From Hanleya hanleyi (lineage: Eukaryota > Mollusca > Polyplacophora > Lepidopleurida > Hanleyidae), in assembly GCA_036873755.1 (NCBI GenBank), contig JAVTVY010016068.1, forward strand, positions 1 to 64,000: a DNA stretch of 64,000 nucleotides. The letters run 5' to 3'. Of the stretch, positions 1,854 to 64,000 are shown piece after piece (positions within the stretch are counted from its first letter, which is position 1; each line of letters begins with the position of its first letter). The position numbers were made by a program, and so were the translations under genes. The notes beneath the pieces were generated by a model that was not told where the DNA came from, searched no databases, and saw nothing but the letters and a program-made list of their open reading frames with translations.

Positions 1854-2981
1854 TTATAGGCGTTTCATGTCACGGCCTGACACCCAGGAATTAAACGAAC
1901 GGGGCCACCCTTGCCATTTGACGAAATGATAGGGGATGCCACGTCGGCGTTCCGTTTTCAAAATCTTTTCCACCGTGTAGTAGTCTTTCGGTGTTTTCAC
2001 TATGGGTTGTAATTCTGCCTCGTAAAACGTGCCTTGCAGTGTTTCTCCTTGTAGATCTTCCAGTTGATAGACGTGTGGCTGTCGAGGTTTATGGCGAACG
2101 ATGACAAAGGGCTCGTCACTCCAGTTGGGCAAGTAACTTTTCTCAAATTGGCCTTTCACTTTACTGATCCGTACCACATCTCCACGTTTGTAACGGGGTG
2201 CCGTGAGTGATGGTGGACTGGGTGAGTACAGCGTACCACGCACTTGATGTTCGTTGCGTTCTGTCACATCGAGGGGAGCTCGCTGGATACTGCGATGATA
2301 GGCTCGATTGTACCCTTGCACCAGTTGAGGTAGTACATCGATGTACCGTCGGGTGTTTTGGGCAGTAAAATACTTGTACATTCGTCCTTTGAAGGTGCGA
2401 TTGAATCGTTCCACCACAGAGGCTTTGGTCTCGTTGTACGTATGGAAGAAAAATACCTTCTGTTTCTTAAGAAAGGCTTGAAAGGGTCGGTTGAGAAATT
2501 CTGTACCTTCATCCGTTTGCAAATAAAGGGGTTTGCGCCCCGTCTTGAAAATCTGCTGGAACGCCCGTATTAGATTCTCTCCTGTTTTGGTGCGAATGGG
2601 TAGTACCCAGGCATACTTGGATAAAATATCGATACAGGTCAATATGTACCGATGTCCATCATTGTGAGGTGCAAATCGACTCATATCCACTAAATCAGCT
2701 TGCCATTGCGCGTCTATGCCTCCTACGATGACTCGGTTACGGCGAAAATGTCGTCGGGCTGCTCGATGTAAACTATAAGTGTCTTGGGTTTTTAACCAGT
2801 CTCGAACTTCAGTTCGACTGATGCCTTGGGAATGGACAGCTCGAGCGAGCGCTCCCACAGCGCTATACGCGGCTGGACTGGTAGGGTTGTAATACAAATC
2901 GGTTAACACCTTGTTCACTGTAGATGCTGACCCCTTTTTTCCCTTTCGGGACCGCTTCATCACGGTCTTCTTACCCCTCAT
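1854..2981 (-). CDS. Polinton retroviral-type integrase (rve) with C-terminal chromodomain
   Basis: 375 aa. A basic N-terminus precedes an HHCC-less zinc-binding-like region and the catalytic core. The acidic triad is visible as D96 (WQADLVDM), D157 (QTDEGTEF) and E191 (VVERFNRT), spacing DD(33)E, as in Polinton integrases. Residues about 265-325 form an SH3-like segment (RYKRGDVVRISKVKG). Residues 335-375 are a chromodomain (YTVEKIL ... YHFVKWQGWP ... NSW), which could direct insertion by reading histone tails. The enzyme would integrate linear element DNA with a 6-bp target duplication. Its ATG overlaps the stop of the upstream PC4-like gene (ATGA at 2978-2981), implying co-transcription. 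All three catalytic residues are present. Confidence 0.93.
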   Translation of the reverse strand: MRGKKTVMKRSRKGKKGSASTVNKVLTDLYYNPTSPAAYSAVGALARAVHSQGISRTEVRDWLKTQDTYSLHRAARRHFRRNRVIVGGIDAQWQADLVDMSRFAPHNDGHRYILTCIDILSKYAWVLPIRTKTGENLIRAFQQIFKTGRKPLYLQTDEGTEFLNRPFQAFLKKQKVFFFHTYNETKASVVERFNRTFKGRMYKYFTAQNTRRYIDVLPQLVQGYNRAYHRSIQRAPLDVTERNEHQVRGTLYSPSPPSLTAPRYKRGDVVRISKVKGQFEKSYLPNWSDEPFVIVRHKPRQPHVYQLEDLQGETLQGTFYEAELQPIVKTPKDYYTVEKILKTERRRGIPYHFVKWQGWPRSFNSWVSGRDMKRL

Positions 2982-4752: not shown

Positions 4753-5185
4753 GCTATTTTTTCTATAGTTTTTATAGTTTTCTCTCGATAAACCAGTTAC
4801 AATTTTCAGGGTGATATTATAAGGCTGTGAGCAATATACTTGACGTATTTTTAGCCAGGAAAACCCATTTATTTGCAGTGTACCGGGTTTTCCACACTAC
4901 CGTACTATAACGTTAGGCGTGTAAAAATCGATAAGATTATGAAAAATAGCGGTTTAGTCTAGCGCTATCCTGCTAAATTTTTAAATGCTACACTATGAGT
5001 TGCCTCAGTTCAACTTGAAATAAAATTTATACGTGCACTGACATTTATTGTAAAATGACAACCGTTTAAAATTGGAAAAGAAACACAAATATTTTGTTCA
5101 GCGTAAAAATATAGACCAAACAGATAGAGCGATTTCGCTGACGTCCGCGTAATTTTTATATAAGCTAGCACCCAGCTTGATGCGG
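4753..5185 (+). promoter_or_regulatory. About 400-bp shared upstream region, copy a
   Basis: This stretch matches, in inverted orientation, 7834-8222 and, in direct orientation, about 61652-62065. Shared landmarks in order are CGATAAACCAG, TATAAGGCTGTGAG, TGACGTATTTTTA, AGGAAAACCCATTTATTT, GTACCGGGTTTTCC, TTTTTAAATGCTAC, GAAACACAAA and GATTTCGCTGACGTCCGCG. All copies lie immediately upstream of a gene start and end near a TATA box. It is probably a common viral promoter/enhancer; a replication-origin role cannot be excluded. Confidence 0.7.
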
Positions 5186-5211: not shown

Positions 5212-5829
5212 ATGAACAAGAAGAAAATGAGCAGCAACAGCAGCCACGGAATAGCGACAATGTCCACCACCAACACCACGAAGGTCTCCCGCCGGCGAAA
5301 CAACAGAGCGGTATCTCGACGCCAGAAGAAAGCCATGATGGATGCCATTCAACAATTCTGGTTGTGCGAATTAACAGAATGGAGCGCCCCATTGAACAAT
5401 AACCAAGACAGTGTATCGGCCGGAGGAAACGGAACAGCGGGCAATTTAAGAAGATTAATTAATGCGTCAAGAACCGTCAGCGAGGAGGGGTGGTTAGAAT
5501 TACTACAGACCACCATGCGGAGACACATGCACCCTGCCCCTCCTCCGCTGCTGGCCCCTCGACCACCAGAAGAAGAGCCAGCAGTCCAGCCGGATGATGA
5601 TGAAAATATACCAACAGCGCCGCCCGTGGATTTTCCCCTCCAAGACCTGCCCACCAACATCATATTCGAAGAACAACAACAGGACAACCAACAACAACAA
5701 CAGACAATAGCTGCCGCCAACTTCTTAGAGGGTATGCCCATCACGCTACAAGACGAAGAAGAAGAAGAGGGTGTTCAACATAAATATACCTTGACACCTT
5801 ATTCCTATTTCTCGGTGAGCAACATGTAA
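5212..5829 (+). CDS. Orphan acidic/glutamine-rich protein with a histone-type 3' end
   Basis: 205 aa. The N-terminus (residues 1-45) is Ser/Thr-rich and basic (RRRNNRAVSRRQKKA), resembling a nuclear localisation or nucleic-acid-binding tail. Residues 45-105 may be helical. The middle is proline- and acid-rich (about 106-150), then comes a Q run (about 153-165) and an acidic stretch (DEEEEEG) near the C-terminus. I recognise no domain. The ATG at 5212 follows a TATATAA box (about 5156-5162), and the whole shared upstream region precedes it. A histone-type stem-loop lies 60 bases after the stop, as for the RING genes, so it is probably expressed with them. No copy is seen in the right element within the window. 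Confidence 0.6.
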   Translation: MNKKKMSSNSSHGIATMSTTNTTKVSRRRNNRAVSRRQKKAMMDAIQQFWLCELTEWSAPLNNNQDSVSAGGNGTAGNLRRLINASRTVSEEGWLELLQTTMRRHMHPAPPPLLAPRPPEEEPAVQPDDDENIPTAPPVDFPLQDLPTNIIFEEQQQDNQQQQQTIAAANFLEGMPITLQDEEEEEGVQHKYTLTPYSYFSVSNM

Positions 5830-5888
5830 GGGAGTAGACAAGAAAACTCCCTCCCTGAAGAAAACAGGGTGATCAAATTGAACCTAAC

Positions 5889-5904
5889 GGCCCTTATCAG
5901 GGCC
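5889..5904 (+). terminator. Histone-type 3' stem-loop of gene 5212
   Basis: A six-bp stem GGCCCT/AGGGCC encloses the loop TATC, preceded by AAC and followed by AACC and a purine-rich CGAAAGAGAG element about 13 bases downstream. This is the layout of replication-dependent histone mRNA ends (SLBP stem-loop plus U7 site). The loop differs from the usual TTTC. Confidence 0.75.
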
Positions 5905-6037
5905 AACCAATGCTATCGAAAGAGAGCTTCTAATAACTTGGCACAAATTTCAAAGCATAGGTCCCACATTACCCCTTTTTTATTCTATAATATTAGCAAA
6001 CTGCAACACCAAAAAACAATCCCTGCCCGATATTAAC

Positions 6038-6053
6038 GGTCCTTGTCAGGACC
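6038..6053 (+). terminator. Second histone-like stem-loop, no own ORF
   Basis: GGTCCT/AGGACC with loop TGTC, again preceded by AAC and followed by AAAC and CTCTC. The stem differs from the copy at 5889 by a paired C-to-T/G-to-A change, so pairing is kept. It may be a decayed second 3' end left by a local duplication. Confidence 0.5.
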
Positions 6054-6113
6054 AAACTCTCTCTTATAAACACAGGTTTTATTTTTGTTTTTTTCTCTCT
6101 CCCAGTAATTAAT

Positions 6114-6693
6114 ATTACAGCCCGAATCATAACGGACTGAAATTTATTTGAACCAGCACAGGGCCTGGAGACTAGAAAAGAGGGGAAAGGGGGAGAAGGG
6201 GGAGGGGGAGGGGGCATGTTTTTGTCGTTGGCGACCCTGTGCGACATGTTACTAATTTTACAATTTTTTTCTCTCTCAGTAATTAATATTACAGCCCGAA
6301 TCATAACGGACTGAAATTTATTTGAACCAGGGGGTGAGAGGAGAAGGGGGGAAAGGGGAGGAGGGGGACATTTGTCACTGTTGTTGTCGACCAGTAAAGG
6401 AATAAACATTACAGCCCGAATAATAACGGACTGAAATTTATTTGAACCAGCACAAAGGGGTTTGGGATTAGAAAGAAGAGTATATGTGTGTGATGCCCGA
6501 ATCATAACGGACTGAAATTTATTTGAACCAGGGGGTGAGAGGGAAAGGGGGAAAGGGGAGGAGGGGGACATTTGTCACTGTTGTTGTCGACCAGTAAAGG
6601 AATAAACATTACAGCCCGAATAATAACGGACTGAAATTTATTTGAACCAGCACAAAGGGGTTTGGGATTAGAAAGAAGAGTATATGTGTGTGT
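6114..6693. repeat. Five copies of a 38-43-bp motif in a convergent 3' region
   Basis: Copies end at 6156, 6330, 6450, 6531 and 6650 and share CCCGAATNATAACGGACTG followed by AAATTTATTTGAACCAG. A nearly exact direct duplication (about 6347-6492 and 6548-6693) carries two of them with G-rich and TG-repeat flanks. The block lies between the convergent genes 5212 (+) and RING A (-). The long ORF across it on the minus strand is only the repeat read through. Confidence 0.8.
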
Positions 6694-6765
6694 GTGTGTG
6701 GGAGTTGATGTTAATTTTTTATTTTGTGCTTTTGATAGAAATTTTCTCTTCCGGAAAGATCAGGT

Positions 6766-6781
6766 GGCTCTGAAAAGAGCC
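6766..6781 (-). terminator. Histone-type 3' stem-loop of RING A (left)
   Basis: On the minus strand GGCTCT TTTC AGAGCC is preceded by CCAAC and followed by ACC, 20 bases after the stop codon. A purine-rich GGAAGAG stretch follows about 15 bases later. This is a perfect match to the metazoan histone stem-loop consensus. Confidence 0.85.
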
Positions 6782-6800
6782 GTTGGAAATATGTAAGCGA

Positions 6801-7763
6801 TTACATCGTTGGGGGCTGTTGGAATTGTCTTCTTCTCTCAGTACACACCGGGCATGTCAAGGCTATGAATTCACACACTAGGGGTTTGTAAGCGTCCGCA
6901 CACACTGGTATTTGGGCATGTTTATGTATACAAGCCACACACAAGGCTTGATGCCCACAAGGGAAAATAGCGTATTTAGCAAACTGGTTACAGCATTGCA
7001 CGCAGTGTAAATAACAGGCTGCTTGGCGTTCTGTGTTGGATGCCAGTGTTGTTGTTGATATTGCAGAAACGTAGTGGATGACGTCTTGGTTTTGTTTTTG
7101 GCTTATTTTTCTTGTATTCTCTCTTATTCTCTTTTTTCTGGCGTCTTTTCTGTTTTTTCTCGCCTCTTGCCTATTTCTATTGCTTCTGGCGTCTTTTCTA
7201 CCGCTTCTGGCGTCTTTTTTACCGCTTCTGGCGTCTTGCCTGTTTCTTCTGGCGTCTTTCCTGTTTTTTCTGGCGTCTTTCCTCTTTTTTGTTGAGTCTT
7301 TGCTTTTTTCAAATACTGTGGTTTTGAAGTCTTTCCCCTTCTCCTCATCTTCGCTTTCTCCTTCTTCTGTGTCGGTTTGGGATTCGGATTCGGTTTCTTC
7401 TTGTCCCGTTTCTTCTTCTTGTTCCATTTCTCCTGCTTTTTCTTTAGCTGGGGAGCTTTGTTGTTCTTTCAACATAGTTTCCAACATGCGGTCTATGTCG
7501 TCAAAATGTTGGTATTCGACTGCGGTAAGATCCGAAGTCGCTGCTGGGAAGTGACTAAGATGCGGTGTGGCTGCTAGGAGGTCTCTAAGAAGCGGTGTGT
7601 CTGCTGTCGTATGGTGCCGGGGTTGAGGTGTAAATAAGTCTTCCATTATAGCATCCAACCATGGCGCGTCATCTACCACATTAATGATGTTGTCGAACAC
7701 TTGTACTTCATTATCATCATCATCATCATCATTTGTGATGAAGTCTGATATGTCAATATCCAT
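6801..7763 (-). CDS. RING-finger protein A (left copy)
   Basis: 320 aa from the ATG at 7763 (MDIDISDF). The frame is open further upstream but only from a non-ATG codon, and the right copy also has MDID near its start. The N-terminus is acidic with a D run and hydrophobic clusters (PWLDAIMEDLF) like an activation domain. The middle is acidic, then residues about 150-220 are basic repeats of about seven residues built on KDARxxR. The C-terminus (about 253-308) is a C3HC4 RING: CVQC, PCGHQALCVAC, CPVC. It is a likely E3 ubiquitin ligase or nuclear regulator. The gene is intronless, has a shared upstream region, a TATA box (7837-7844) and a histone-type 3' end. The target is unknown; the RING class is clear, the rest is inference. 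Confidence 0.8.
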   Translation of the reverse strand: MDIDISDFITNDDDDDDNEVQVFDNIINVVDDAPWLDAIMEDLFTPQPRHHTTADTPLLRDLLAATPHLSHFPAATSDLTAVEYQHFDDIDRMLETMLKEQQSSPAKEKAGEMEQEEETGQEETESESQTDTEEGESEDEEKGKDFKTTVFEKSKDSTKKRKDARKNRKDARRNRQDARSGKKDARSGRKDARSNRNRQEARKNRKDARKKRIRENTRKISQKQNQDVIHYVSAISTTTLASNTERQAACYLHCVQCCNQFAKYAIFPCGHQALCVACIHKHAQIPVCADAYKPLVCEFIALTCPVCTERRRQFQQPPTM

Positions 7764-7833
7764 GATTTCACCCAGGGGATCACTCCATCCCTGTGCACGT
7801 GTAGTAGACACTGATATAATTGTAAATACTGCG

Positions 7834-8222
7834 CGCTATTTATAGTGTAAAGCGCGGACCTCAGCGAAATAGCTCTATCTGTTTGGTCTATATTTTTACC
7901 CTGAACAAAATATTTGTGTTTCTTTTCCAATTTTAAACTTGTGTGATTTTACAATAAATGTCAGTGCACGTATAAATTCAACCGAGGCAACTCATGGGAT
8001 AGCATTTAAAAATTTAGCAGGATATCACTAGACTAAGCCGGTATTTTTAATAATTTTATCGATTTTTACATGGGTAACGTTATAGTACGGTAGTGTGAGA
8101 AACCCGGTACACTGAAAATAAATGGGTTTTCCTGGCTAAAAATACGTCAAGTATATTGCTCACAGCCTTATAATATCACCCTAAAAATTGTAACTGGTTT
8201 ATCGAAAGAAAGAAAGAAAACT
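7834..8222 (-). promoter_or_regulatory. About 400-bp shared upstream region, copy b
   Basis: Inverted relative to copy a (4753-5185) and placed upstream of RING A. It begins with TATAAATAGCGCG on the minus strand (TATA box at 7837-7844) and ends at the CGATAAACCAG-like landmark. With copy a it forms an inverted repeat around genes 5212 and RING A. Confidence 0.7.
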
Positions 8223-8317
8223 AGGAAATGTTTATGCTTGGGCAACGGTAACACAGCACTATACAGTGTGCAGGGAAAAAATGTGAGTACAGCTATGGGA
8301 TGTCAAATGGAGAAAAA

Positions 8318-8433
8318 ATTTCCTAGTTTTTTTTCTTTTCGATAAACATGCTGCAGTGAACTCACATTTATTGCAAAAAAAAATGAGACCCTGTTTTAAA
8401 GTTGGAAAAATAAAACACAAACAATTTTTAGCA
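8318..8433 (+). promoter_or_regulatory. Truncated shared upstream region, copy d
   Basis: Plus-oriented fragment upstream of RING B holding the first landmarks (TTTCCTAGTTTT, TCGATAAAC) joined to the later ones (CATTTATTGCAAAA, AAAACACAAA), with the middle missing. Confidence 0.55.
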
Positions 8434-8460
8434 GATACCACCATGTTGCACTCACTCACA

Positions 8461-8579
8461 CCGGCCGCCATCTTAAACCCACCACCCACCCATCCACCAC
8501 CATTTTGCACTCACTCACACCGGCCGCCATGTTAAACCCACCACCCACCCATCCACCACAGCCGGCTAGACTATAAATA
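8461..8579 (+). promoter_or_regulatory. YY1-like minisatellite and TATA box of RING B (left)
   Basis: Two repeat units contain GCCGCCATCTT or its variant followed by AAACCCACCACCCACCC. Then comes TATAAATA (8572-8579) and an initiator-like TCATTTATTCAC at 8595-8606, 11 bases before the ATG. Confidence 0.65.
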
Positions 8580-8616
8580 ACGCGTAGTATCTTGTCATTT
8601 ATTCACAACTACAATC

Positions 8617-9366
8617 ATGGGTACAAGACGAAGACTCTTCACCGATCCGAGAGACCCTAGACAACACAGAGAGGTGATTACGACAGGAGATGAACATAAC
8701 AATGGTGAAGTGGCAATAATTACAAGCTTTGAGCAGGTTATTGTCGACGAGACGATGATACGGCGAAGTGAAGAACAACTGCAAAAGCTGCGGAGGGAGG
8801 TAATGGAAGAAGATGCGAGATTGATAAGACAACGAAGTCAAGAACAAGACCAAGAAATCAGGAGGGTGGTGCTGGAAGAAGAAGAGGATCAGCATATATC
8901 TGATGCAGATATAAGTGATGAGGAAGAAGAACTCCCCTGGTTAAACAGTAACAGACCTCCAGCAAATACAAGGGCTACTCAGACTCCGATTATAACCACG
9001 TCGGCTTGCGAAACAACAACAACAACACTACCATCACCATGTTCTTGGGCCGAGGTAACCCGCCTGAACGAACAGATTAATAACATGAGACAACACATGG
9101 ATCAAATGGACGTTATTATTTTAAAACAAGAAGAAGCTCGACAGAAGGAACAAAGTAAATTAATCTGCAGTGTGTGTACAGCGGAAGAAAGCCTGTACGC
9201 TCTATTTCCGTGCGGGCATTTATGCCTATGTGAAAAATGCTGGGTTACGCTAACATGTATAGGGGGTGTGTGCCACTGCGCTGAAACGGACGAACAGCAT
9301 TTAAAGATCAAGTGTCCCGTGTGTAGGAAGCAGGTAGCCGGGGTAAAGAGAATTTACCGCTCCTAA
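8617..9366 (+). CDS. Coiled-coil RING-finger protein B (left copy)
   Basis: 249 aa. The N-terminal 95 residues are charged and helical (SEEQLQKLRREVMEED...). An acidic stretch EEEE and Thr-rich linker follow, then a predicted coiled coil at about 145-182 (EVTRLNEQINNMRQHMDQMD). The C-terminus is a C3HC4 RING with C184, C187, C199, H201, C205, C208, C233 and C236 (CSVC, PCGHLCLCEKC, CPVC). The RING spacing with its PCGH core resembles the IAP/MUL-type E3 RINGs at protein C-termini. No BIR domain is present. It is a likely dimeric E3 ligase. The gene is intronless with a TATA promoter and a histone-type 3' end 27 bases after the stop. It has a diverged homologue at 60668-61390. Confidence 0.85.
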   Translation: MGTRRRLFTDPRDPRQHREVITTGDEHNNGEVAIITSFEQVIVDETMIRRSEEQLQKLRREVMEEDARLIRQRSQEQDQEIRRVVLEEEEDQHISDADISDEEEELPWLNSNRPPANTRATQTPIITTSACETTTTTLPSPCSWAEVTRLNEQINNMRQHMDQMDVIILKQEEARQKEQSKLICSVCTAEESLYALFPCGHLCLCEKCWVTLTCIGGVCHCAETDEQHLKIKCPVCRKQVAGVKRIYRS

Positions 9367-9393
9367 AACAAGTGTCGTAACACTTTTACAAAA

Positions 9394-9409
9394 GGCTCTT
9401 TTCAGAGCC
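9394..9409 (+). terminator. Histone-type 3' stem-loop of RING B (left)
   Basis: GGCTCT TTTC AGAGCC, preceded by ACAAAA and followed by ACC, with the purine-rich CCGAAAGGGAAAA about 11 bases downstream. It is a perfect six-bp stem. Confidence 0.85.
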
Positions 9410-9531
9410 ACCTGATCTTTCCGAAAGGGAAAACTTCTAACTGAAAAAGCACACAAAAAATTAACACCAGCTCCCTTCACCCTTTCCTCTATGAAAAAAA
9501 TTTTTTAAAAATTTTTTAAATTTTTTTTTTA

Positions 9532-10007: not shown

Positions 10008-10048
10008 TTTTTTTTTTTTTTTTTTTTTTTTCTTACTATTTTTTTATT
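10008..10048 (-). terminator. AATAAA signal and genomic A-tract after CARD-PC4 (left)
   Basis: On the minus strand AATAAA (10043-10048) is followed by a 24-base A run (10008-10031). The right copy has the same arrangement, and the sequence beyond the A-tract is also shared, so it is an ancestral feature. Confidence 0.7.
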
Positions 10049-10416: not shown

Positions 10417-11754
10417 TCAATAGTTCTGCAACAAGACTTGTTTGAACTCATCATCGTCTTTCCGCCCCTGGTGCACGTAGATGTAGGTAGTAATTTCTTC
10501 ACGTGGAATTTTGGGAGGGCAGGTAGCTTCCACTCTCAGGGCAATTTGCGACTCGGTCACGGCCTGTAGTGCCTCAGTGATCAGTGCGTATGAGGGTACA
10601 CTAGTGTCCACACACGTATGCTGGTTTATGGGACTGTTATTTTCACAGCCTGCACATGCTTGGATACGCAAGTGTCGAATTTGAGGTCTGATCAGATCCA
10701 GGACTGAGTCGATGTACTTCTTATAAATATAGTGAGACACCTGGTCAGCCAGAGCTTGACGAATTGCAGCTGTGACACTCTGCAACTTCCGCCACGCCGT
10801 TAATTTCAAGGTGACACCCTGAGGACAAGGAATACGCTCTTGCGTATCTAACCTCATTTTCCATTTACGGATATGCACCAGGAGCTGGTCGTTGAAATAG
10901 GCACAGCTGACAAAGATGTCGTCACCCACATAAAATTTCGCTTCGTCACTCCCCTGGTCGCGAATAACCGCATCGATGGCGTAATCAAGGGTCTCCAGTT
11001 TTTGCCAGGTGTCTAAGTTCATGGCAATATGCCTACCGGATCTGTCGTTAAAGCCCGCTGCGTTAAAATGCACTTCTTCGTCTTTCACACTCACAGTTAA
11101 ATAGGCTGAGAGCTCCCAAATGTCCTTGTGGGCTGCCTGGTAGGCCTGCTGAATAATGTTATTGATATCCTGCACAGACATAGGAAGTTGCACCTCTTCT
11201 TCTTTCACAGGCTCAGGCGCTTGCTGAAGCACTGACTCAGGTATTTCTAAAGGTGTTAGTCGGGGGCGTTTGGGTCGTGCAGCGCGTTTGGCAGGTACAC
11301 CAGACGCTGGGTGCGTACGTTTGCTAACTGTACGCTCTTCGGTGGTATCCATGACTAAGATATCATCATCTTGTATAACGTCGGCTTCAAGTAGATCTGC
11401 TAGTTCTTCATTTCCCGTGATCTTCAACCCCGCCACGAAGGCTAGAAATGCATAGGGGGTAGAGCGCAGTACACCATCGATGAGGGCTGTGTTTTGTGCT
11501 GAAGTGGTTTTCTCAGCCATGATATCTTCCACACGCTGTTTCAGAAGTATGTTTTCCTCCATAAGGAAATCACATAATTCACCCACATGCTGCATCTCTT
11601 CAATCAGACGAACACGGTACTTTCCAAGCCTCACTAAAAATGATGATGACGCCATGACTATGGGCTCAGGCTGATGAGCAACTGCTACGGTGTAAAAGTC
11701 TCCTGAATTTGCACTCGTAAAATTAAAAAAAGTAAAAGGTTCTACACAGCTCAT
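10417..11754 (-). CDS. CARD - basic NLS - tandem PC4-like protein (left copy)
   Basis: 445 aa, intronless. Residues about 42-125 read as a caspase recruitment domain: a helical bundle ending in ALIDGVL, STPYAFLAFVAGL and TGNEELADLLEAD, the classic CARD helix 4-6 signature. Residues about 145-167 are a bipartite basic signal (SKRTHPASGVPAKRAARPKRPR). Two PC4-like units follow: about 215-265 (YLTVSVKDEEVHF ... NLDTWQKLE) and 276-335 (GDDIFVSCAYFNDQLLVHIR, then GVTLKLTAWRKLQ). The second closely fits the PC4/Sub1 strand-helix layout. A conserved C-terminal domain contains CAGC. The start is supported by conservation of MSC.EP.TFF in the right copy. It could bind a host CARD adaptor and ssDNA or transcription complexes. 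Domain calls come from pattern; function is inferred. Confidence 0.75.
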   Translation of the reverse strand: MSCVEPFTFFNFTSANSGDFYTVAVAHQPEPIVMASSSFLVRLGKYRVRLIEEMQHVGELCDFLMEENILLKQRVEDIMAEKTTSAQNTALIDGVLRSTPYAFLAFVAGLKITGNEELADLLEADVIQDDDILVMDTTEERTVSKRTHPASGVPAKRAARPKRPRLTPLEIPESVLQQAPEPVKEEEVQLPMSVQDINNIIQQAYQAAHKDIWELSAYLTVSVKDEEVHFNAAGFNDRSGRHIAMNLDTWQKLETLDYAIDAVIRDQGSDEAKFYVGDDIFVSCAYFNDQLLVHIRKWKMRLDTQERIPCPQGVTLKLTAWRKLQSVTAAIRQALADQVSHYIYKKYIDSVLDLIRPQIRHLRIQACAGCENNSPINQHTCVDTSVPSYALITEALQAVTESQIALRVEATCPPKIPREEITTYIYVHQGRKDDDEFKQVLLQNY

Positions 11755-58629: not shown

Positions 58630-59991
58630 ATGAGCTGTGGAGAACCTGTTACTTTTTTTCATTTTACCAGTGCCTGTTCACCAGACTATTACGCCGTAGC
58701 AGTTACGCACCAGCCTGAGCCCATAGTCATGGAGTCATCCCAGCAACAGAAGCTTCGGTACTGTCGTGTTCGCCTCATTAATGAGATGGAGCGTGTGGTC
58801 GAAATATGTAATCTGCTTATGGAGGACAGCATACTGCTGAAACAGGGTGTCGAAGATATCATGGCGCACAACACCACTTCACGACAAAACAGAGCTCTCA
58901 TCGACGATCTAGTGCGCCGTGGCCCCTATGCATTTCTAGCCTTCGTGGAGGCGCTGAAGAAGACGGGAAATGAAGAACTAGCAGATCTACTTCAAGCCGA
59001 CGTTGTACAAGATGATGATATCTTAGTCATGGACACTACCGAAGAGCGTACAGCTAGCAAACGTACCCACCCAGAGTCTGGTGTACCTGCCAAACGCGGT
59101 GCACGACCCAAACGGCCCCGACTAACACCTTTAGAAATACCTGAGCCCGTGCCCCAGCAAGTGCCTGAGTCCATGAAGGAAGAAGAAGAAGAAGAAGAAC
59201 AACAACAAGAACAGGTGCAACTTCCTATGTCTGTGCAGGAGATCAATAACATGATCCAGCAGGCCTACCAGGCAGCCCACACGGACATTTGGGAGCTCTC
59301 AGCCTATTTAACTGTGAGTGTGAAAGACGCAGAAGTGCATTTTAACGTACCGGCCTATAACGACAGACCCGCTAGGCATATTGCCTTGTCCTCGTACACC
59401 TGGCAAAAACTGGAGACCCTTGATTACGCCATCGATGCGGTTATTCGCGACCAGGGGAGTAACGAAGCGAAATTTTGTCTGGGTGACGACATTTTTGTCA
59501 GCTGTGGCTATTTCAACGACCAGCTCCTGGTGCATATCCGTAAATGGAAAATGAGGTCAGATACGCAAGAGCTTGTTCCTTGTCCTCAGGGTGTCACCTT
59601 GAAAATAACGGCGTGGCGCAAGTTGCAGAGTCTCACAGCTCCAATTCGTGAAGCTCTGGCTTACCAGGTGTCTTACACTATTTATAAGAAGTACATCGAC
59701 ACAGTCCTGGCTCTTATCAGACCTCGCATTCGACACTTGCGTATCCAAGCATGTGCAGGCTGTGTGAACAACAGTCCCATAATAATGCATACGTGTGTGG
59801 ACATTAGTGTACCCTCATACGCGCTGATCACTGAGGCATTACAGGACGTCACCGAGCAGCAAATTACCCTGGCATTGGAAGCTGCCTGCCCTCCCACAAT
59901 TCCACGTGAAGAGATTACTACCTACATCTACGTGCACCAGGGGCGGAAAGACGATGATGAGTTCAAACAAGTCTTGTTGCAGAACTATTGA
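58630..59991 (+). CDS. CARD - basic NLS - tandem PC4-like protein (right copy)
   Basis: 453 aa from the ATG at 58630; the frame upstream opens only at a non-ATG codon, and MSC.EP.TFF is the conserved start. The layout is as in the left copy. The CARD is at about 41-125 (CRVRLINEMERVVEICNLLM, then AFLAFVEALKKTGNEEL). The basic signal is at about 145-167. An acidic/Q insert (EEEEEEQQQEQ) follows, making this copy longer. PC4-like units lie at about 223-275 and 284-345 (LLVHIRKWKM, GVTLKITAWRKLQ). The C-terminal domain ends YVHQGRKDDDEFKQVLLQNY as on the left. Many substitutions but no stop or frameshift separate the two copies, which suggests selection on both. Role inferred: a death-fold adaptor mimic with a nucleic-acid or transcription module. 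Confidence 0.75.
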   Translation: MSCGEPVTFFHFTSACSPDYYAVAVTHQPEPIVMESSQQQKLRYCRVRLINEMERVVEICNLLMEDSILLKQGVEDIMAHNTTSRQNRALIDDLVRRGPYAFLAFVEALKKTGNEELADLLQADVVQDDDILVMDTTEERTASKRTHPESGVPAKRGARPKRPRLTPLEIPEPVPQQVPESMKEEEEEEEQQQEQVQLPMSVQEINNMIQQAYQAAHTDIWELSAYLTVSVKDAEVHFNVPAYNDRPARHIALSSYTWQKLETLDYAIDAVIRDQGSNEAKFCLGDDIFVSCGYFNDQLLVHIRKWKMRSDTQELVPCPQGVTLKITAWRKLQSLTAPIREALAYQVSYTIYKKYIDTVLALIRPRIRHLRIQACAGCVNNSPIIMHTCVDISVPSYALITEALQDVTEQQITLALEAACPPTIPREEITTYIYVHQGRKDDDEFKQVLLQNY

Positions 59992-60494: not shown

Positions 60495-60536
60495 AATAAA
60501 AATAGTAGAAAAATTCCAAAAAAAAAAAAAAAAAAA
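60495..60536 (+). terminator. AATAAA signal and genomic A-tract after CARD-PC4 (right)
   Basis: AATAAA (60495-60500) is followed by a 19-base A run (60518-60536), matching the left copy. Confidence 0.7.
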
Positions 60537-60625
60537 TGAGTGTTAGTGTTCATTGAGTGTGGTGATGGGGAGCTGGTGTTATTTTTTTTTGTGCTTTGAG
60601 AAGTTCTCTTTCGAAAGAATGGGGT

Positions 60626-60641
60626 GGCCCTGAAAAGGGCC
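60626..60641 (-). terminator. Histone-type 3' stem-loop of RING B (right)
   Basis: Minus strand: GGCCCT TTTC AGGGCC preceded by CCAAC and followed by ACCCC, then CTTTCGAAAGAGAAC (60603-60617). The stem differs from the left copy by a compensated T-A to C-G pair. Confidence 0.85.
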
Positions 60642-60667
60642 GTTGGAAAGTGTTACGACACTTGTTT

Positions 60668-61390
60668 TTAGGAGCGGAAGATTCTCTTCACTCCGGCCAC
60701 CTGCCTCCTGCAGACGGGGCACTTTATTTTTAAATGCTGTTCGTTGGTTTCATTGCAGTGGCACACGTCCCCTATACACGTTAGTGTCACCCAGCATTCT
60801 TCACATATGCATAAATGCCCGCACGGAAATAGGGCGTACTGTGTTTCCTCGTCTGTACACACACTGCAGTTTGCTTTACTTTGTTCTTTATCCAGGTCTT
60901 GTTGTAGTTTAAGCTTCACTCTGTCCATTTGACCCATGTCTTCCCTCATTTCGTTAATCTGTTCGTTTGCCGAGGTCACCTGGTCGTTTAGGCGGGACAC
61001 CTGGTCGTTCAGGCGGGTTACCTCGGCCCAAGAGCATTGTTGTGCAGGTGGTTGTGGTGGTGGTGTTGTAGCTGGCGTCTCTGTTTCCGTAGCCGGTGTT
61101 GTTATAATTGGCGTTTGGGTAGCCGCTGTATTTGCTGGAGGTCTGTTACTGTTTAACCACTCTATGGTGGGCAGTTCTTCATCGTCCGTGACATCCTCAT
61201 CATTATCTTCTTCCATAGCGGCCGTCACCTCTTGGTCTTGTTGTGCACTTCGCCGTCTCAACGTATCGGCAATATGACGTTGATGCACCCGCTGTAAGCT
61301 TGTAATGATTGTCACACCGCCATCATCTTCACTGGTAATGACCTCCCTATGTTCTCTAGGGTCGTTGAATACTAGCCTTCTGGTAGTCAT
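60668..61390 (-). CDS. Coiled-coil RING-finger protein B (right copy)
   Basis: 240 aa, intact. Compared with the left copy, the N-terminal charged region is shorter. The coiled coil is extended by an internal duplication (EVTRLNDQVSRLNDQVTSAN). The C-terminal RING is well conserved (CSVC, PCGHLCICEEC, CPVC, ending VAGVKRIFRS). The stop precedes the histone-type stem-loop by 26 bases. The promoter has TATAAATA (61429-61436) and an initiator TCATTCAC (61402-61409). It is divergently paired with RING A (right). The RING and tail are more conserved than the linker, as expected for a working E3. Substrate unknown. Confidence 0.85.
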   Translation of the reverse strand: MTTRRLVFNDPREHREVITSEDDGGVTIITSLQRVHQRHIADTLRRRSAQQDQEVTAAMEEDNDEDVTDDEELPTIEWLNSNRPPANTAATQTPIITTPATETETPATTPPPQPPAQQCSWAEVTRLNDQVSRLNDQVTSANEQINEMREDMGQMDRVKLKLQQDLDKEQSKANCSVCTDEETQYALFPCGHLCICEECWVTLTCIGDVCHCNETNEQHLKIKCPVCRRQVAGVKRIFRS

Positions 61391-62099: not shown

Positions 62100-62829
62100 A
62101 TGGCTGAAACCATGGATATTGATGCAATGCTTAAAGAGTTCATGAGTGATAGTGACCTACAACACCCACCGATAGAGGACAAATGGCTGGATGATATATT
62201 ACAGCCCCTATTTACAGATGAACAACACCAACCGGTACTACAGCATGGTGATGCAGATGTCACCGCACTGGAAACTCCACGGTTTCACCAAATCCTCGAA
62301 GATATCTTCCAACACTATGATGAAGAAGAACCAAGCCTCCAAGCTCAACTCCTACCCGATCAGTTGGCACACCCAGAAAAAAGCAGGGGAAAAAGAAGAA
62401 CAAGAAGGAGAGGGAACATCCAAGAAAATACAGCAAGAAGGAGAGGGAACATTCAAGAAAATACAGCAAGAAGAAGAAGAAGAAGAAGAAGAGGAGAAAA
62501 ACGGAGGAAAAAAAAGAAAAAGGGGTGAACAAGAAAAAGAACAAATTGAAGACCTGCATGACTACGCTACCGCCATAAAAAGAAGACTGGCACCACCCGT
62601 AAAATGGACACCAGCCCGGTTTTTACGCTGTGTGCAATGCTCAACACGCTTTGCTAAATATGCAATATTTCCATGCGGTCATCAAGCCCTGTGTGTACGC
62701 TGTATTGACCACACACAGACCCACCGAACAGACCCTATGTTCAATGATACACCCCTAGAGTGTCATTTCATCACCATCGATTGCCCGGTGTGTACCCGGA
62801 GGCGGGTAAACTTCGCCCGAACGATGTAA
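62100..62829 (+). pseudogene. RING-finger protein A (right copy), frameshifted
   Basis: The N-terminal frame starts MAETMDIDAML, with an activation-domain-like DDILQPLF, and runs on into an arginine/lysine tail stopping at 62528. The RING half (CVQC, PCGHQALCVRC, CPVC, to the stop at 62829) is in the +1 frame, with an acidic E-run preceding it. By alignment to the left copy the frame change falls at an A6 run (62377-62382). This may be a real mutation, a sequencing error or, less likely, programmed slippage. The promoter and histone-type 3' end are intact. Confidence 0.7.
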
Positions 62830-62847
62830 TCCCTTACATCTTCCAAA

Positions 62848-62863
62848 GGCCCTTTTCAGGGCC
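62848..62863 (+). terminator. Histone-type 3' stem-loop of RING A (right)
   Basis: GGCCCT TTTC AGGGCC, preceded by CCAAA and followed by ACCCC and CTTTCGAAAGAGGAAC (62872-62887), 18 bases after the stop codon. Confidence 0.85.
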
Positions 62864-62949
62864 ACCCCATTCTTTCGAAAGAGGAACTTCTAACTCAAAG
62901 CACAAAATAACACCAACTCCTGCACATGCACATACCTAAAGGTAACAAT

Positions 62950-64000
62950 AAGTAAAATAACACATGAATTTCCATGTTAAAATCCATTCCTATGTTTATA
63001 CCATTAGGGTTGGCCCTGAAACATTTTTTTCGTATATCTATAATATTAGAGTCGATGTACACAGCGCTGATTGGTGGCCCTACAAGGTGCCTACACCGAG
63101 GTCCGCGCCACCACCCTTCCTGGGTTAATTTACAATCCTCAGATTTTGCAGCAAAATCGTCTAGGGTCAATTCCCAGGTTAAAAATCCATTCTTATGTTT
63201 ATAACATTAGGGTTGGCCCTGAAAAGAGTCGCGTGTACTGTATTGGCGCGAGTGATGCATTCTGGGTCACGCCAGAATCCCTTCATTTGGCACGAAATTC
63301 GCACTAGCAAACTCCTATGTTAAATGATTGCGTCTATTAATAGCATTAGAGTCGATATACGCGTCGCTGATTGGTGGCCTACAAGGTGTCTACACCGAGG
63401 TCCGCGCCACTACCCTTCCTGGGTTAATTTACAATCCTGAGATTTTGCACCAAATTTGTCAATTCCTAGGTTAAATGATTGCATGTATTGAAATAACATG
63501 ACGGTTGGCCCTGAAAAGAGTCGCATGTACTGTATTGACTGTGTGCCGCCAGAATCCCTTCATTTGGCACCAAATTCACACTAGCAAATTCCTATGTTAA
63601 ATGATTGCGTGTATTGAGATAACATTAGAGTCGATATACACGTCGCTGATTGGTGGTCTACAAGGTATCTACACCGAGGTCCGCGCGACCACCCTTCCTG
63701 GGTTAATTTACAATCCTGAGATTTTACACCAAATTTGTCATTTCCTATGTTAAATCATTGCACGTATTGAGATAACATTGAGGTTGGCCCTGAAAAGAGT
63801 CGCGTGTACTGTATTCACTGTGTGCCGCCAGAATCCCTTCATTTTTGCACCAAATTCACACTAGCAAATTCCCATGTTAAATGATTGCGTCTATTAATAG
63901 CATTATAGTCCATATACGCGTCGCTGATTGGTGGCCTACAAGGTGTCTACGCCGAGGTCCGCGCGACCACCCTTCCTGGGTTAATTTACAATCCGTTCAC
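62950..64000. repeat. Tandem repeat array, period about 280-300 bp
   Basis: Units start at CATTAGAGTCGAT or a variant near 63047, 63345, 63625 and 63901 and continue past the window end. Each holds GCTGATTGGTGG, CACCCTTCCTGGGTTAATTT and, in most, GGTTGGCCCTGAAAAGAGTC, which on the minus strand resembles a damaged histone stem-loop. No coding is seen. It may be the element's interior or its junction with satellite DNA. Confidence 0.75.

Follow-up and report, generated by a model that had tools for sequence, protein, structure and literature searches.

How does a mobile, virus-like element that resides in an animal genome end the messenger RNAs (mRNAs) of its own genes? This question is raised by a 64,000-nucleotide (nt) stretch of the mollusc Hanleya hanleyi (assembly GCA_036873755.1, contig JAVTVY010016068.1, positions 1 to 64,000 of the forward strand; hereafter the window), where two copies of a Polinton-like element carry genes that are followed, shortly after the stop codon, by a stem-loop of the histone type. 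The loop-ended accessory genes of this element are of three kinds, gene A, RING-B and RING-C. According to PMC7026596, the loop of histone pre-mRNA is bound by SLBP, the downstream element is paired by the U7 small nuclear ribonucleoprotein (snRNP) and the RNA is cut between the two by CPSF73, and canonical histone genes are described as carrying the loop and a purine-rich element without a poly(A) signal (PMC5011920). Judged from sequence, the loops of the element are very probably working histone-type 3'-end signals, at which host SLBP and U7 would cut the gene A, RING-B and RING-C mRNAs, leaving them without poly(A) and with an S-phase bias. The observations behind this reading are the signal itself, its maintenance from copy to copy, its likeness to the signal of host histones, its location in a mobile element and the presence of a host gene with an SLBP domain. 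An initial annotation of the window had already interpreted these 3' ends as histone-type. That interpretation stands as regards the type of signal, its upkeep in 40 of 40 sampled RING-C copies, the Polinton-like setting and the host-like features including the purine element, but it does not extend to a further gene, CARD-PC4, whose end differs.

All five stem-loops listed in the initial annotation were located, each with a purine-rich element behind it and at distances from the stop codon (59, 19, 27, 26 and 18 nt) that fall within the 18–60 bases claimed. In the first element, gene A (5212-5829, +; 205 amino acids) is followed by a stem-loop at 5889-5904 (+), 59 nt past its stop, with the loop UAUC and then the purine element CGAAAGAG. 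RING-B (6801-7763, −; 320 amino acids) has its loop at 6766-6781 (−), 19 nt past the stop and followed by CCGGAAGAG, while that of RING-C (8617-9366, +; 249 amino acids) lies at 9394-9409 (+), 27 nt past the stop and followed by CCGAAAGGG; all three frames are uninterrupted. The module has the reverse orientation in the second element, where the RING-C loop (60626-60641, −) lies 26 nt behind a gene of 240 amino acids (60668-61390, −) and the RING-B loop (62848-62863, +) 18 nt behind a gene (62100-62829, +) that is split into the overlapping frames 62100-62528 (N-terminal) and 62191-62829 (RING). Pfam analysis indicated a C3HC4 RING domain above the cut-off in RING-C and a RING match under the cut-off in RING-B; gene A has no Pfam match, and none of the three kinds of gene has a histone domain by Pfam.

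When compared with the Rfam model of the histone 3' stem-loop, RF00032 (curated cut-off 34 bits), four of the five listed loops score above the cut-off: RING-B and RING-C of the first element with 35.3 bits (6740-6786, −) and 35.5 bits (9389-9435, +), and RING-C and RING-B of the second with 37.9 bits (60601-60646, −) and 38.8 bits (62843-62889, +). The gene A loop falls below it (5884-5929, +; 27.5 bits, E 0.0013). Of the stems named in the initial annotation, GGTCCT belongs to an unlisted sixth loop, a second one behind gene A (6038-6053, +; GGTCCT UGUC AGGACC), which lacks a purine element and also scores under the cut-off (6033-6078, +; 19.9 bits, E 0.9). Short hairpins are common in DNA, and the loops could in principle be chance palindromes or terminator-like hairpins, but only 0.01–0.06 such loops are expected randomly, and the match to the host histone signal extends over loop, flank and purine element, so that this explanation has next to no probability. 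Specifically, the loop pattern with up to three mismatches has eight matches in the window, three of them imperfect copies within a tandem repeat, where 100 shuffles averaged 0.01 and never gave more than 1. A perfect 6-bp stem with a TNTM loop and an AMC flank occurs five times in the window; in 100 simulations under a first-order Markov model the average was 0.06 and no run had more than one. A chance origin is ruled out by these shuffles and simulations together with the sampled RING-C copies.

Those copies come from the 2.48 Gb genome that holds the window, in which RING-C has at least 162 matches (scoring covered the best 150 of 7452 candidates). Forty RING-C 3' ends were taken, blind to the loop, at about every fourth row of the match list, passing over rows already in hand and adding partial rows near the end of the list. 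All 40 have a loop in which all six pairs form (in one copy with a G-U) and the first and third loop bases are U, with the purine element 13 nt past the stem. The loop starts 26–29 nt beyond the expected stop, both values of 29 belonging to matches that end one residue early. Among the 40 there are 13 distinct 45-nt tails, which show double-sided changes at two of the six pairs (U-A to C-G and C-G to G-C) and intact pairing in 78 of 78 cells; none of 500 shuffles reached their covariation score, although such scores may be inflated by the relatedness of the copies. The protein is maintained as well, with a median ratio of non-synonymous to synonymous substitution rates (dN/dS) of 0.37 over 175 of 190 pairs, the other 15 lying beyond the dS limits and being left out, and of 0.21 for the RING part (164 pairs), which indicates purifying selection; this set comprised 18 of 29 RING-C loci found by their loop (frame of at least 200 amino acids) and the two window copies.

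The genomic setting of the loop-ended genes was addressed with the integrase encoded in the window (1854-2981, −), which combines an rve core (43 bits, cut-off 32.6) with a chromodomain (Chromo, 25.8 bits, cut-off 25.1) and has 109 matches in the genome that are 96-100% identical. At least 33 pairs of integrase and RING-C show the divergent arrangement seen in the window, 4.2-9.6 kb apart (median 5.6 kb), and two further combinations share a contig without this arrangement. The count drew on 55 of the 109 integrase rows and on 62 RING-C rows, chosen in part for contigs that recur; it therefore gives a minimum and cannot be read as a rate. A second set of loci was selected by the loop, using 68 of 74 pattern matches and leaving out six, and comprised 29 RING-C, 7 RING-B and 30 ORF127 loci, one linker histone and one DDE transposase; CARD-PC4 lies in the same piece for 28 of the 29 RING-C loci. 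By sequence context, the loop-ended RING genes are thus assigned to a Polinton-like mobile element. The host does have at least one more family of loop-ended genes, ORF127, found in tandem arrays, and one might suppose that the RING genes are likewise host genes, for example relatives of a histone cluster, that adjoin a mobile element by accident; the recurrence of the divergent RING-C/integrase arrangement in at least 33 places and the company of CARD-PC4 at 28 of 29 loci make this extremely improbable. Accidental host neighbours were accordingly rejected on the repeated arrangement.

To place the element's signal beside that of its host, histone genes were found with PF00125 and 20 of their 3' ends were examined. 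A script pattern recovered the loop in 14 of them (L094 with a mismatch at pair 2) and inspection by eye added four more, of which L096 and L113 are fully paired and L104 and L105 have a single mismatch each, while no loop was present in L103 and L111. Tails that we take to be those of H3 and H2B, from the last residues of the proteins, mostly consist of GGCCCTTTTCAGGGCC, AACCA, a short spacer and CGAAAGAGAACTTCTA, then GCACAA. The element tails resemble them, their flank being most often ACCCA or ACCCCA, and the host linker histone H1 (PF00538; L027) has a similar tail. In an ungapped comparison of 28 tails, 15 of them from host histones including H1, the 18-mer TCGAAAGAGAACTTCTAA is exact in two host tails (L098, L110) and three element tails (L046, L082, L080); window gene A, second-element RING-C and two more host tails (L097, L112) have one mismatch to it, and the remainder differ at 2–7 places. 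In the loop-selected set, a RAAAGRG core lies 12-14 nt past the stem behind 31 of 31 RING-C loops and 13 nt past it behind 8 of 9 RING-B loops. The host also has a gene with an SLBP RNA-binding domain, found in two pieces on one contig. An additional short hairpin (AAGTGT..ACACTT) was seen between stop and loop in RING-C (9367-9393; 60642-60667, −), and a comparable one in host H2B (TAAGCG..CGCTTA; L108-L110) and H1 (L027) tails, but not in the H3 tails examined.

The initial annotation had taken the accessory genes in general to be loop-ended, which the CARD-PC4 gene contradicts. This gene (10417-11754, −, in the first element, where it faces RING-C; 58630-59991, +, in the second) has the poly(A) signal motif AWTAAA and no loop behind it in both elements. 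Its end could be placed at 28 of the 29 RING-C loci, and on the CARD-PC4 strand between the facing genes AWTAAA is present and the loop absent in 28 of 28. On the RING-C strand, AWTAAA occurs at 9 of the 28 loci and never less than 490 nt past the loop. In the loop-selected set, the 250 nt behind the loop lack the motif for all 31 RING-C and all 20 gene A loops; across the window, 25% of stretches of this length contain it. Two of the 40 sampled RING-C pieces have AWTAAA in the remainder of 161 nt. In both elements, the last AATAAA downstream of CARD-PC4 is succeeded, on the strand of that gene, by runs of A (60519-60538; approximately 10010-10032).

These data bear on whether the loop could be a neutral, functionless relic of a captured host histone 3' end, with transcripts polyadenylated farther on. 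The resemblance of element and host tails fits such an origin, as does the inverted repeat formed by the RING-B and RING-C tails of each element, which indicates that tails have spread, and conservation covers the whole 3' stretch rather than the loop alone, the entire stretch being well conserved in an alignment of 50 tails. A relic would nevertheless have to account for six pairs kept in 40 of 40 copies with paired changes at two of them, for a loop retained, among the loop-selected loci, in RING-C lineages with dS of up to ~0.97 from the window copy, and for the lack of AWTAAA close behind RING-C when it is present behind the facing gene. Among ten divergent copies, conservation is 0.97 in the loop and 0.71 at the far end. 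We consider a relic very unlikely.

Several results weigh against working histone-type signals. Both gene A loops of the window score under the Rfam cut-off (27.5 and 19.9 against 34 bits), and in the ungapped comparison the first-element RING-B tail departs from the host 18-mer at 7 places, and the tails of RING-C in that element and of RING-B in the second at 6 places each. The number of double-change pairs in the RING-C tails was reached by 22 of 500 shuffles and pair types show no excess, while conservation in the 50-tail alignment is 0.93 in the loop against 0.96 between stop and loop. First-element RING-B has AWTAAA 77 nt past its stop, one of nine RING-B loops has it within 250 nt, and so do 23 of 30 ORF127 loops, which also have the purine element; since ORF127 carries both, loop and AWTAAA do not exclude each other here. 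Finally, a host U7 gene was found neither by an Rfam search, which likewise gave no match in control genomes, nor by one pattern, whose single host match compares with 1 and 1 in reversed controls and has surroundings that are not U7-like by eye or fold.

A different function of the loops is suggested by gene A, whose regions have two or three tandem loops, not all of them with a purine element, ahead of repeats that hold imperfect loops. The loops might bind SLBP in order to titrate it, or steer RNA stability or translation, with the 3' end being made otherwise. A sponge of this kind would not need a purine element, so the presence of this element at the spacing of host histones behind 31 of 31 RING-C and 8 of 9 RING-B loops in the loop-selected set, and in 40 of 40 sampled RING-C copies, speaks against it and leaves it unlikely. 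The tandem loops were seen in gene A regions of other copies (L029, L080, L087-L090, L092), and in the loop-selected set 5 of the 20 loops of gene A are followed by an AAAGRG core. The repeats that follow are ~280-290 bp long and their loops have the second pair broken; in the window, imperfect loops of this kind lie at 63212-63230, 63504-63522 and 63783-63801 (−).

For the histone-type signal that we favour, we infer the following from sequence. Host SLBP would bind the stem-loop of the element and host U7 snRNP would pair with the purine element starting ~10-14 nt past the stem, for example CGAAAGAGAACUUCU. A cut between the two would make the gene A, RING-B and RING-C mRNAs end just past the loop without poly(A), while other genes, such as CARD-PC4, would use ordinary poly(A). 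Because the pathway is most active in S phase, gene A and the RING genes would be expressed mainly in cells that replicate their DNA, where the RING proteins may act as host modulators, perhaps as ubiquitin ligases. More tentatively, and with a probability that we put well below even, the histone pathway could be a cell-cycle gate for an integrating lineage of DNA viruses, the tandem gene A loops in addition drawing SLBP off host histone mRNAs during viral DNA synthesis. Integrated copies would then be active only in replicating cells, because the RING genes and gene A would yield stable, translated mRNA only where SLBP is plentiful.

Other features of the two elements concern their organisation. 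First and second copies are 80% identical in CARD-PC4, 69% in RING-C and 44% in RING-B (one frame of the second copy), and the CARD-PC4 protein has a CARD domain over the Pfam cut-off and a PC4 domain slightly under it. A probable packaging ATPase is encoded at 583-1197 (−; Pox_A32, 21.4 bits, under the cut-off of 22.8). The regions before gene A (4770-5149, +) and before RING-B (7853-8220, −) of the first element form an inverted repeat of ~375 bp, 90-94% alike, upstream of the two gene starts, which suggests a shared promoter region and joint control of gene A and RING-B. The RING-B and RING-C tails themselves form inverted repeats (81%) in each element (6700-6789/9386-9475; 60569-60653/62836-62920) and have one stem type in common within an element. 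The tails therefore appear to have spread through duplication or conversion, and look as if they had been homogenised within each element.

Loops of this kind are also present elsewhere in the genome. The ORF127 loci (L026, L040, L045, L072, L073 and 25 more) are small genes without a Pfam match, partly in tandem arrays, that end in a loop and purine element. The loop downstream of a DDE_Tnp_4 transposase gene (L076) is of this type too, and no AAAGRG core occurs in the 30 nt that follow. Three divergent histone-fold genes ending in ..MQQVAMEE or ..MQQVLEE (L106, L107, L113) have the same kind of tail and are possibly mobile or viral histones.

As far as is known, replication-dependent histones account for almost all animal mRNAs that lack poly(A). 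If the proposed mechanism is true, the SLBP/U7 route would be accessible to parasites and would give an integrated element a simple way to sense DNA replication in its cell, and more than 100 variants in one genome would provide natural non-histone substrates for probing what the pathway needs. Such transcripts would also escape poly(A)-selected RNA sequencing, which could make the genes concerned seem unexpressed in conventional data sets.

No report of histone-type 3' ends in viral or Polinton genes was recognised in searches of the full-text literature (subscription papers and other eukaryotic genomes lay outside the scope). Protein-database searches with RING-C and the CARD-PC4 pair yielded no hit at E 1e-3 among 308 and 7007 candidates, respectively, and tblastn searches of IMG/VR with RING-C, integrase, CARD-PC4 and ATPase returned no relative. 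The exact loop pattern has one match in IMG/VR, in a GC-rich, phage-like stretch without a purine element that we judged to be chance, and of the 24 IMG/VR stretches with loop and purine element none has all three tested stem pairs. The loops would amount to a known system put to a new use by a mobile, virus-like element, a reading with which the signal agrees.

The system in question is the 3' end of replication-dependent histone mRNAs, defined by RF00032, the histone downstream element, SLBP and U7 snRNP. The tails of the element share with it a six-bp stem, a loop of four bases, the first and third of them U, an ACC-like flank, a purine element 10-14 nt past the stem and a position shortly after the stop of an uninterrupted frame. 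The genes differ, in that they lie in a mobile element and encode RING proteins and a protein without a known domain instead of histones. With Polintons and adintoviruses the element has in common an integrase of rve core and chromodomain, the latter an adintovirus trait according to PMC11071296, and many copies, and probably a packaging ATPase as well. Protein-primed PolB, capsid proteins, protease and terminal inverted repeats would be expected to the left of window position 1. Histone-type 3' ends are not reported for known members in the relevant parts of PMC11071296. Hairpins also set the 3' ends of viral mRNAs in Mimivirus, but there, as described in PMC4402537, the hairpin sequence is unconserved, the enzymes are viral and cytoplasmic and poly(A) is added, whereas the sequence in our element is that of the host histone signal. 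The Histoid genes of adomaviruses and their relatives also link animal DNA viruses with histones, and one case of such genes comes from a clam dataset with adintovirus-like virion proteins (both as given in PMC11071296). Those genes encode histone-like proteins, whereas in the element from H. hanleyi it is the 3'-end signal that is shared and the proteins are non-histone.

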